DNA from: Methylonatrum kenyense
GTDB taxonomy: Bacteria > Pseudomonadota > Gammaproteobacteria > Nitrococcales > Aquisalimonadaceae
Reading direction: 5' to 3'
Length of the DNA: 64,000 nt
NCBI RefSeq assembly: GCF_023195885.1
Contig: NZ_JALPKO010000004.1
Coordinates: forward strand, 186,001-250,000
How positions within the stretch are numbered: the stretch's first letter is position 1; each line of letters begins with the position of its first letter. Made by a program: the position numbers and the translations under genes. The notes beneath the pieces were generated by a model that was given only the letters and a program-made list of their open reading frames with translations, was not told where the DNA came from and did not search any database. Below are positions 4,186-41,353 of the stretch, in pieces.

Positions 4186-4310
4186 CACTGCATGTGCGAG
4201 GCGCGCCAGCCGCGCCGCCGCCATTCTGGTGTCAGGCGGCGCTCCGCCGCAATCGGGTTGATGGCCCCGCTGGTCGGGGCCGGGGTTGCGTGCTGCCTGT
4301 GAACCCGGGC

Positions 4311-15603: not shown

Positions 15604-16130
15604 TCGTCCGGGGGCGGCGTACTGATCCATGCATAGTGGCGACCACAGAGTGCTGGGAGCGTCCGCTTTCCTTTGTCGCCATATTGTAGAAATCTACAAA
15701 TACGCCGAAATCGGAAAAACGGGAGGTTAAGCGATTACGTGGCCCAAGACTTTCATGAGGTTTTTGAGCACATGGAAGGATGTTCGACCCGGGCGCCCGC
15801 CCGGCCGCGTTCTGCGGCAACGCCTTGCGCTTGTTCCGCGACGTGCATCGGCAACATTCTGGCCAGTCAGATCGGTGGGCGGCCACGCCCTTCGCCACTG
15901 GGGTAGGAACAGTTGAGTTCCGTGAGCAGTGCATCCCACGGTGTCACCGCTCCGGGCCGGATATTCCACTAAATCGGAGACGCTCAATTGCATAGGTGGA
16001 ACGCTCTCGGTTTTCTGTCATAGTCATGATATCTCAACTCGGGACAGGAAGTTCAACCGCAAGGCCGAAATAAATCAGCATTTCCCTAATGGCGAGCCTT
16101 ATGCTAGATAATGCCAAAGGAGATTAGTCG
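15604..16130. other. 527-bp gene-free interval entering an AT-richer patch
   Basis: No convincing gene. The composition shifts from GC-rich (15780-15960) to AT-richer. It holds the palindrome at 15684-15699 and, at its right end, the AAAGGAG ribosome binding site for the gene at 16131. Frames longer than 60 codons on both strands show no family resemblance. Confidence 0.6.
15684..15699. promoter_or_regulatory. 16-bp palindrome, possible operator
   Basis: TTGTAGA-AA-TCTACAA: perfect 7-bp inverted repeats around a 2-bp centre. It is too short and AT-rich to be a terminator. It resembles the binding site of a dimeric repressor, but no adjacent regulator gene was seen. Confidence 0.35.
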
Positions 16131-37634: not shown

Positions 37635-38936
<1,302 letters not shown>

Positions 38937-38950
38937 TGCACCTCGGCTTA

Positions 38951-39273
38951 CGGAAACGCTGAATTATTCGCACGCCTGCGTAGGAGTCCGCATTTTTTCC
39001 GAGGCAAGGCGCGCTGCGCAGCGCCGCAGTCATTCTGCGGTCAAGCAGCGCAACGCAGCAATCGGGAAAAATGCGGCCCTACCGGAGGCAAGCATGCGCC
39101 GTCGCACGCCGCCGCGTGACCGTCGGATTCGCTTGCCTGTGGCCCGGCCGGTTTTGGCCCCTGGCTGTGTTGCGTCACCGGCCCGGTAGCTCAAACTACC
39201 GAACCGGCACCGCGCCTTGCCAGATGACCAAAACCGGCCTCGGGCGCAGACGCGGGAATAAATCAGCGTTTTC
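38951..39273. mobile_element. MITE-like element with terminal inverted repeats
   Basis: About 323 bp with no gene. Its ends are imperfect inverted repeats: left GGAAACGCTGAATTATTCGC (38952 on) and right, read inverted, GAAAACGCTGATTTATTCCC. TTA flanks both sides (38948-38950 and 39274-39276), a possible 3-bp target duplication. Inside is an 89-bp imperfect palindrome (38988-39076). The right half (39148-39216) has a relative at 4391-4460. It fills most of the 382-bp gap between arsC and the acylphosphatase gene. Confidence 0.6.
38988..39076. repeat. 89-bp imperfect palindrome inside the MITE-like element
   Basis: Left arm starts CCGCATTTTTTCCGAGGCAA and right arm ends CAATCGGGAAAAATGCGG; the arms pair over about 42 bp around a TCATT centre, with several mismatches. 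As RNA this would be a long hairpin. The sequence type is common in intergenic regions of GC-rich gammaproteobacteria, as far as I recall. Confidence 0.7.
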
Positions 39274-39318
39274 TTAGAAGCCGCCATTCTGAAGTTTTTT
39301 GTCGCCGGGTCCAGATCG

Positions 39319-39591
39319 ATGCGTGTTCAATGCCGCCGATTCCTCATTTCAGGCCGCGTCCAGGGCGTCTGGTTCCGAGCCGGCACCCGCGAGCAGGCTG
39401 TGTCGCTGGGGCTTGATGGTGTGGCCCGCAACCTGGATGACGGCCGCGTGGAAGTGACGGCTTTCGGACCGGCCGAGGCGCTGGAGCAATTACACGACTG
39501 GTTGCAGCGTGGAACATCCCAGGCCCGGGTCGAGGAGGTTCGTGAGGTTTCGGCACCATCGCAACCTGAAAAGGGCTTTCGGATCGCCTGA
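39319..39591 (+). CDS. acyP: Acylphosphatase
   Basis: 90 residues. It hydrolyses acyl phosphates such as carbamoyl phosphate. Catalytic residues are in place: Arg20 (VQGVWFRAGTREQA) and Asn38 (GVARNLDDGRVEV). Full family length. ATG 39319 begins 46 bp after the MITE-like element and has no clear ribosome binding site, so its promoter may lie within the element. Confidence 0.95.
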   Translation: MRVQCRRFLISGRVQGVWFRAGTREQAVSLGLDGVARNLDDGRVEVTAFGPAEALEQLHDWLQRGTSQARVEEVREVSAPSQPEKGFRIA

Positions 39592-39769
39592 CAGGCCAAC
39601 CGGGGTAACCGGGACGGTATGGTCTTTACCGGCGTGGCGATCCGTGGAACCATAACGCCCTGAAAATTTCGTATCGACTTGCTCCCAAGGCTTGCGAGTC
39701 AATAAGCCGGTCTAGGCCAGTGCTGCGGCCTGACTCGGCCTGATACCAACGCAGCAGCGAGAGAACGTG

Positions 39770-40096
39770 ATGAGACTGAAGAGTATCGTATTGGCGTCAA
39801 TCTCAGGCGCTCTACTGGCTTCCGGTGCACTCCAGGCCGAGGAGGGAGATGCGGTCCGTGGCGAAAGCCTCGCCTGGTCCTGCATGGGCTGTCATGCCGT
39901 GGAGTCGGCGCGCAACAGCTACCCGTCCTACCGCGTGCCGATGCTCGGCGGTCAGAACGAGCTGTATCTGTACCAGTCATTGGTGGCCTACAGGGAAGGC
40001 CAGCGCGAACACGCGACGATGCAGGCGCAGGTTCGCAGCCTCTCCGATCAGGATCTGCGCGATCTTGCCGCCTACTTTGCCGGCGACGACGACTGA
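39770..40096 (+). CDS. Small c-type cytochrome (c4/c5-like), copy 1
   Basis: 108 residues. A signal peptide (about 1-23, ending ALQA) is followed by one haem site, Cys38-Met-Gly-Cys41-His42. Met84 in HATMQAQ is the likely second iron ligand and the chain ends SLSDQDLRDLAAYFAG. It is a periplasmic electron carrier. It is paralogous to the next gene, 27 bp downstream, and both probably share one transcript. ATG 39770 is preferred to a GTG one codon earlier. Confidence 0.9.
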   Translation: MRLKSIVLASISGALLASGALQAEEGDAVRGESLAWSCMGCHAVESARNSYPSYRVPMLGGQNELYLYQSLVAYREGQREHATMQAQVRSLSDQDLRDLAAYFAGDDD

Positions 40097-40123
40097 TCGG
40101 GCCGCTTAGCCGAGAGATTGATC

Positions 40124-40471
40124 ATGATGAAACTTTCTACTGCAATGTTGGCGCTGGCCGGCCTGTGCATGGCCGGGAGCGCGGCCGCGATCGAGCGCGG
40201 CGATATCGAACGTGGTGAAGACCTGTCGCTGGCCTGCATGGCCTGCCACTCGGCGGATGCCACCAACAACAACCCGGAATGGCCCCGGCTCTACGGCCAG
40301 CATGGTGAATACCTGCTGCAGGCGCTCCGCGACTACAAGACCGGGAGCCGTGACAACGCGATCATGCAGCAGCAGGTGGACCACCTGTCGGACCAGGATC
40401 TGAGGGATCTCGCTGCCTACTTCTCGAAGCGGGAAGGGCAGCTTTATACCAACCGTCCGCCTCGCCGGTAA
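40124..40471 (+). CDS. Small c-type cytochrome (c4/c5-like), copy 2
   Basis: 115 residues. A signal peptide (about 1-22) and a single CMACH haem site (Cys38, Cys41, His42); Met81 in AIMQQQV is the likely axial ligand. HLSDQDLRDLAAYFSKREG matches copy 1 closely, so the pair arose by tandem duplication and now resembles the two halves of a dihaem cytochrome c4 on separate chains. GAGAG precedes ATG 40124. Partner enzymes are unknown. Confidence 0.9.
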   Translation: MMKLSTAMLALAGLCMAGSAAAIERGDIERGEDLSLACMACHSADATNNNPEWPRLYGQHGEYLLQALRDYKTGSRDNAIMQQQVDHLSDQDLRDLAAYFSKREGQLYTNRPPRR

Positions 40472-40486
40472 TCAACGCTGTCCAGT

Positions 40487-41353
40487 TCACAGATTGGGGC
40501 CGGCGTGGCCCTGGTCTAGCATGGCCCGGTAGCCGGCGCGAAAATCCGGATAGCGGAAGCTGAACCCGGAGCCTCGCAGGCGGCGATTGCAGCAACGCTT
40601 GTTGCTGCCCCTTTGATCGCCGGGTGCTCCGCACTGTCGCGGCAGGCGCGGGAGCCCCATCTCGTCCGCAAGCCAATCCAGCACTTCATGCATCGGTGAC
40701 GGCCTGTCGTCGACACCAAGGTAGATCGGCGCCGCTTGGGGCAGTGTGAGCAGATGGTCCAGCACCGCGATGCAATCGCTCTGGTGAATGCGGTTGGTGT
40801 ACGTGGGGGGGTCGGCCACTACCGGCCGGCCTTCGCGTACGCGTTTCAGCAGCCGTTCCCGCCCCAGCCCGTAAATCCCGCCCAGCCGCAGGATCACGCC
40901 CCGGTCTCCCAGGGGACGCAACAATGACTCTGCCTGCAGCAGCCGTCGGCCGGAAAAGGCCTGCGGTTGCGTCGCGCTGGTCTCGTCCACCCACGCCCCG
41001 CCGGTATCCCCATAGACCGAGGTGCTGGACACGAATATCACCCGGGCCGGGCTTTGACCGGCGTTTTCCAGCGACTGCAGCAGATTGCCGAATCCACGGA
41101 CGTAGGCCTGTTCATAGGCGGCATCGGTAAAGGTGCCGGGCGTTGCCGTAAACACCACCGCGTCCAGATCCGCCGGCAGCGAAGCGCGCAGGGATGCCGG
41201 GTCCGCCAGATCCGCGCTCAGCGGTTCAATCGGCTCAGGCAACAACGATGCCTGCCGCCGCAGGCCGAAAACCCGGTCGCCAGCGGCGGCCCGACGAAGT
41301 CCGAGTTGGGTGGCAAGCTTGCCGCAGCCGGCAAGCAGAAGTCGCTGTATCAT
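40487..41353 (-). CDS. SDR-family NAD(P)-dependent epimerase/dehydratase (YeeZ-like)
   Basis: 288 residues. The nucleotide-binding loop is AGCGKLATQLGLRR (about 8-21), a variant of the GxxGxxG motif. The catalytic-type SSTSVYGDTGGAWVDE and LRLGGIYGLGRERLLKRV place it in the extended SDR family near YeeZ. Substrate is unknown. ATG 41353 is close to the divergent trmH start (31 bp), so promoters must overlap the opposite genes. Confidence 0.87.
   Translation of the reverse strand: MIQRLLLAGCGKLATQLGLRRAAAGDRVFGLRRQASLLPEPIEPLSADLADPASLRASLPADLDAVVFTATPGTFTDAAYEQAYVRGFGNLLQSLENAGQSPARVIFVSSTSVYGDTGGAWVDETSATQPQAFSGRRLLQAESLLRPLGDRGVILRLGGIYGLGRERLLKRVREGRPVVADPPTYTNRIHQSDCIAVLDHLLTLPQAAPIYLGVDDRPSPMHEVLDWLADEMGLPRLPRQCGAPGDQRGSNKRCCNRRLRGSGFSFRYPDFRAGYRAMLDQGHAGPNL

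Follow-up and report, generated by a model that had tools for sequence, protein, structure and literature searches.

Prokaryotic MITEs are dispersed elements of <500 bp that have inverted ends and lie within a duplicated target, and size variants and partial copies are described for Chunjie of Geobacter, according to the passages available from PMC10969869. REPs are palindromes of 20-40 bp tagged with GTAG or CGTC (passages of PMC3733652 and PMC3116915), and Correia elements are named in PMC4853749. The sequence family described here has one copy in the window, the stretch of 64,000 nucleotides of Methylonatrum kenyense DNA that was analysed. It has all the MITE features listed above, including size variants and partial copies, but the core structure of its interior recurs over much of the phylum with different ends, and no such case appears in the PMC10969869 passages. 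Like REP/BIME and REPIN sequences it consists of dispersed palindromic repeats, although its unit measures ~270 bp and not 20-40 bp, is bounded by inverted ends and is flanked by a target duplication. Correia elements resemble it as small, MITE-like repeats related to IS that have inverted ends; by description, their length of about 100-155 bp and their TA duplication set them apart. A YTAR duplication is the mark of the IS5 group. With IS5 family insertion sequences the MITE shares the end sequence and the YTAR duplication of an element found in genome G004, but it has no transposase gene, and only 16-20 bp at the ends are common to both (blastn). No description of these elements was found in the literature covered, including passages of PMC10969869, PMC4853749 and PMC3852290; ISfinder, the original Chunjie paper and most subscription journals lay outside that coverage, and the elements may already be described in print.

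The MITE occupies positions 38948-39277 of the window, with 322 bp between its duplications. The earlier note had described it as a gene-less element with inverted ends of about 20 bp, TTA on both flanks and an 89-bp internal palindrome. The ends are present as an 18-bp pair, GGAAACGCTGAATTATTC at 38952-38969 (+ strand) and GAATAAATCAGCGTTTTC at 39256-39273 (- strand), both of them part of a 47-nt inverted repeat that is 74% complementary. The TTA letters do flank the element, but they are three letters of a 4-bp YTAR duplication, TTAC on the left (38948-38951) and TTAG on the right (39274-39277), with one mismatch between the copies (3/4 letters shared). The palindrome lies exactly at 38988-39076 (+ strand) and is here called arm A; a second one, arm B, is a 94-bp hairpin at 39146-39239 (- strand), in inverted orientation relative to arm A. 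The R2 model, built from 51 cores of the kind described below, detects both arms, A at 39001-39061 on the + strand (E 2e-10) and B at 39223-39162 on the - strand (E 0.003). A third, small hairpin, AGGCAAGC...GCTTGCCT, is found at 39086-39138 (+ strand). Folded as a single strand with DNA parameters, the element reached -104.6 kcal/mol, compared with -72.3 +/- 3.8 for 100 shuffles (z -8.5), none of which was as good.

The element contains no recognisable gene, in line with the earlier note; the four overlapping ORFs (68, 77, 85 and 266 aa) are mechanical and 0/4 had a Pfam match at E 0.001. An identity with a known Rfam family was rejected for both the element and the core, as no family reached the curated threshold in window 38000-40500 and tRNAs alone did so in eight distant core loci. 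The neighbouring genes lie outside the element and are divergent, an ArsC-family gene (PF03960) at 38574-38936 on the - strand and an acylphosphatase gene (PF00708) at 39319-39591 on the + strand. Elsewhere in the window, positions 4193-4252 (+ strand) matched R2 weakly (20.2 bits, E 0.035 for the window), which may reflect a decayed arm or a chance hit, and single end-like sequences at 16089 (- strand), 22209 (+) and 27624 (+) have no partner end within the window.

The search for genome copies proposed in the earlier note yielded many, with matching ends. The end pattern YTARGGAAACRCTGAKYTA with a YTAR flank occurs 315 times in the 2.95-Mb genome with <=3 mismatches, and the reversed pattern 0 times. 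At least 94 matching pieces were found when the genome was searched by blastn, with the best 40 of 225 candidates scored, and 27 of the 30 best loci could be aligned over both ends. Length is 268-272 bp in 25 of these 27 copies; the window copy and locus L002 are longer because of the extra small hairpin, which among the aligned copies occurs only in these two. All four letters of the duplication are identical in 13/27 copies, and at least three in 23/27.

Under a strict version of the end pattern, 26/54 genomes of the order were positive, with 0/54 for the control. The strict pattern was counted 144 times in the genome itself, 104, 122 and 2 times in three congeners, and 132, 104 and 63 times in three genomes of another genus. 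An 800-kb sample contained 85 ends (control 0), which form 8 pairs of 255-285 bp, 6 of <=90 bp, 3 of 91-250 bp and 2 others, leaving 47/85 ends single; these single ends and short pairs indicate that much of the MITE family is decayed or reduced.

Several observations concern individual copies. Micro-elements of ~46-58 bp, hardly more than two facing ends with YTAR-like flanks, are found in G000 at C1:15237-15295, C1:131005-131063 and C24:6120-6177. At C1:59136, C1:62303 and C1:335606 of the same genome, truncated ends continue into another repeat module, GTAGGGTG...AAGCG.AGCG...CGCAC.., which suggests, from the sequence, chimeric elements. The contig ends C25, C39 and C168 of congener G002 carry several copies, so the family is probably a cause of breaks in draft assemblies, where its copies would be undercounted. 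Locus L039 (genome G034), from another family of the same order, combines this twin-hairpin body with ends of another sequence, TGTACTGCCCCATGAATAACGT...

Insertion sites were compared among the 27 aligned copies with a crude gene caller that missed the acylphosphatase gene itself. The stop codon of a neighbouring gene falls exactly in the duplication in 7 copies, the gene ends 11 nt inside the element in 2, the copy lies within 60 bp of a gene 3' end in 5, and the other 13 are elsewhere. YTAR sites in the sample numbered 552 within genes, 413 intergenic and 123 at stop codons, so that the share of copies at stop codons (7/27) is close to the YTAR expectation outside gene interiors (123/536). 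On these figures the copies look like insertions that survived because they did no harm, rather than products of a targeting preference. When the flanks were joined without the duplication, 8/27 copies were flagged as lying inside an ORF; in 7 of these 8 the stop codon either falls within the duplication or lies 11 nt inside the element, and the gene may have been truncated.

The same two neighbour genes are only 55 bp apart in congener G002, compared with 382 bp here, and both sides of the gap align. They are separated by 94 bp in G001, where the element is also absent, and by about 1.5 and 1.6 kb in G003 and G011. Of the empty site with a single TTA that the earlier note had suggested looking for, G002 shows the lack of the element; the site itself has diverged and retains no intact YTAR, so that a single intact TTA cannot be read there. 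The element ends 41 bp before the acylphosphatase ATG, and 37/41 of these bases are the same in the element-free G002, indicating that the leader is older than the insertion.

The earlier note had also proposed that the element may supply a promoter or RNA structure to the acylphosphatase gene. The promoter is not supported, as 0 sigma-70-like sites were detected in window 38850-39400 and the leader in the element-free G002 is almost identical. A terminator-like site was likewise absent at the locus, and the candidate role as donor of a promoter or a terminator was rejected. A contribution of RNA structure at this gene is possible from the sequence; no job of the element for the acylphosphatase gene is evident.

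The autonomous IS with shared ends that the earlier note had suggested looking for is present in a different genus of the family; the genome itself yielded none. Four end pairs, 1210 bp apart, are present in G004, enclosing four identical 1202-bp elements with ends GGAAACGCTGATTTATTCG / GGAAGCGCTGATCTAATGC. Their flanks are TTAG/TTAG, CTAA/CTAG, CTAA/CTAA and TTAG/TTAG, that is, YTAR at both ends in 4/4 and identical in 3/4. They encode a transposase of 327 aa that matches the IS5 family model NF033581 with 339.5 bits (cut-off 140), as well as PF01609 and PF05598. Both MITE ends match one end of this IS, 38952-38971 over 20 bp at 95% and 39256-39271 over 16 bp at 100%; nothing else in the MITE body matched the IS at E 1 (blastn).

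The genome itself has no DDE_Tnp_1 matches, and the G004-type transposase was not found in any of the four genomes of the genus, three of which are drafts. Matches to this transposase at E 1e-10 or better, fragments included, were obtained in 10/54 genomes of the order. A related IS5-type element is present in G036 (L161, L169, L174 and L178), with 10 full-length transposase matches at 50% identity, ends GGAGACTCTGAACTATTC / GGAACGTCTGAACTATTC that are related but different, and YTAR flanks in 3/4 copies examined. Two DDE_Tnp_1 transposases of G001 (L058 and L059) were considered as partners and rejected, as matching ends are absent. A search for autonomous partners with one end pattern in each of G441, G272, G294 and G246 gave no end pair 0.9-1.6 kb apart among the matches listed.

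Both ~90-bp arms have a common core layout, in which covarying stems flank an unpaired, mostly constant GGCAAGG / CAACRCAG loop, and the core GGCAAGGCGCG...TCAAGC..GCAACRCAG is retained where the outer stems vary. Alignments A2, A3 and A4 comprised 28/48, 29/33 and 24 hairpins, respectively. The mean best 14-mer pairing of the outer stem within a hairpin was 0.95 for 48 A hairpins and 0.91 for 33 B hairpins; when arms from hairpins of different genera were combined (11 representatives), pairing was mostly 0.5-0.8. Double changes were observed in 17/25 pairs of A-type hairpins (n = 28) and in 7/14 pairs of the cores, a value reached by 0/500 shuffles. B-type hairpins vary little, with double changes in 3/37 pairs. 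An alignment of 51 diverse cores (A5), from which the 14/65 cores without ends had been dropped beforehand, gave 155 double-change cells compared with 61.6 +/- 6.1 in shuffles (reached in 0/500) and a score of 0.484 vs 0.167. The number of A5 pairs with any double change (9) was no better than shuffled (307/500 reach it), and further pair types were weakly above shuffles (30/500).

Among the 27 copies, which were picked by whole-element blastn, GGCAAGG is kept in both arms in 24 and CAACRC in 25. The arms could keep their complementarity by arm-to-arm copying; arm correction alone should not, however, preserve the loop as seen in the copies picked by blastn, and recent common ancestry is a partial alternative explanation for loop constancy in these own-genome copies. 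In A2, A4 and A5 the search patterns fix core letters and leave the stems free, so that part of the loop constancy there is built in and carries no weight in this argument. At 25 loci chosen by the R2 model the loop was not invariant, with GCAAGG in 19/25 and CAACRC in 21/25.

The exact core pattern was found in at least 116 stretches of named genomes, of which 80 loci were analysed and 36 (L268-L303) left out. Taxa represented among these 80 loci include Acidovorax, Curvibacter, Janthinobacterium, Herbaspirillum, Alcanivorax, Pseudomonas, Thiobacillus, Hyphomicrobiales, Novosphingobium, Desulfobacteraceae and Myxococcota, with a few outside these taxa that are perhaps due to chance or misbinning. 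They contain 83 core matches, 18 of which were too close to a sequence end, leaving 65 to be scored for flanking ends. The core lies between inverted repeats (>=17/20 matches) at 51/65 loci and at 0/65 control positions, and the end sequences differ widely among the core-bearing elements. Folding of 14 elements showed two arms around a tiny spacer hairpin in 10 and a single arm in 3 (L189, L193 and L226), while L238 was neither clearly.

The R2 model, which includes four Ectothiorhodospiraceae cores close to that of the genome itself (L205, L207, L211 and L264), matched at least 45/398 sampled genomes of the phylum, the own genome included, and a model biased to the own genus matched at least 19; both counts are lower bounds, as filters were strict and 13-14 candidates were scored per genome. 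Among 25 R2 loci from 25 genomes, a set that excludes four short loci and the locus of the own genome and that is not strictly independent, given those four cores and the chance that its genomes include species of the named set, 24 lie between inverted repeats of >=18/20 matches, with 0/50 controls at >=17. The 75 core elements bounded by inverted repeats include 67 of two-arm size (>=225 bp), with a median of 267 bp and 56 within 255-285 bp. YTAR-like flanks at both ends were seen in 25/75 of these elements outside the own genome (controls 3/224), a proportion that does not establish an IS5 origin outside the family. Plasmids gave no match to the whole element, an Acidovorax element was found in 1 plasmid record, and the core query matched 2/72,556 plasmid records and 0/50,697 phages; the exact core pattern was also found in 10 stretches of viral contigs.

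The reading of the locus as a small non-autonomous transposon, already proposed in the earlier note, is borne out by copies with matching ends, a relative without the element and an autonomous IS with the same ends. As a member of an IS5-type MITE family, the window copy is unremarkable. The best account, which we regard as very probable, is an IS5-family MITE, presumably moved in trans, with a two-arm interior that would be old and selected. That it is a MITE is indicated by the 315 ends compared with 0 for the reversed pattern, the end-to-end copies, the YTAR duplications and the absence from G002. An IS5-family transposase, now not found in the genome, would have bound these ends and, before it was lost, moved the element in trans. 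What is unusual and new is the interior, with a shape and size conserved across much of the phylum, in contrast to the ends.

Arm correction readily occurs in palindromes. An ordinary MITE with arms that owe their symmetry solely to template switching or gene conversion, and with a core that reflects shared ancestry without function, would accordingly be expected to show double changes in the stems from correction too. Such correction should have removed the mismatched loop, yet GGCAAGG and CAACRC are kept in both arms in 24 and 25 of the 27 copies, and the outer stems vary between genera while core and size are constant, so this explanation seems unlikely. We consider it more doubtful still that the family is a regulatory or terminator-like element (REP/BIME-like) serving the host, which would retain it at gene ends for the sake of its RNA hairpins after spread by transposition. 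The copies with a stop codon in the duplication (7), a gene end 11 nt inside (2) or a gene 3' end within 60 bp (5) would fit it; the first of these shares is, however, about that expected from YTAR sites outside gene interiors, the window copy stands between divergent genes with neither a terminator- nor a promoter-like site, and many copies are reduced or cut, with 47/85 sampled ends single. The strong structure ending 41 bp before the ATG could also be taken for an ancestral leader of the acylphosphatase gene that is local and not mobile, a reading with hardly any probability left, as it is already contradicted by the 315 ends in the genome and by gaps of just 55 and 94 bp at the same genes in G002 and G001.

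Under the preferred account of a MITE moved in trans, the arms would be an old, selected part of the element that most likely forms on single-stranded DNA or RNA, where a host factor or the transposase may recognise them and help the element to move or be tolerated. In our judgement, the arms rather probably serve the element's own movement or tolerance; arms without function are an unlikely case, and arms with a host function a clearly less likely one. On the simplest account, a long-lived non-autonomous lineage would fit its ends to local transposases and retain its arms for some function. It is conceivable, and put forward tentatively, that the whole family is one old, phylum-wide lineage of ~267-bp two-arm transposons with a loop read by a widely conserved protein, whose terminal repeats were repeatedly swapped to suit the resident IS5-like transposase.

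MITEs are usually viewed as decayed insertion sequences with an unimportant interior, and here it is the interior that is conserved and the ends that vary. On the practical side, the R2 model marks this repeat family across at least 31/213 sampled genera of the phylum. If the arms are selected, they would offer a well-defined structure with which to look for the protein or process at work, and gene-less parasites could hold a structural module for a very long time and change their transposase masters.
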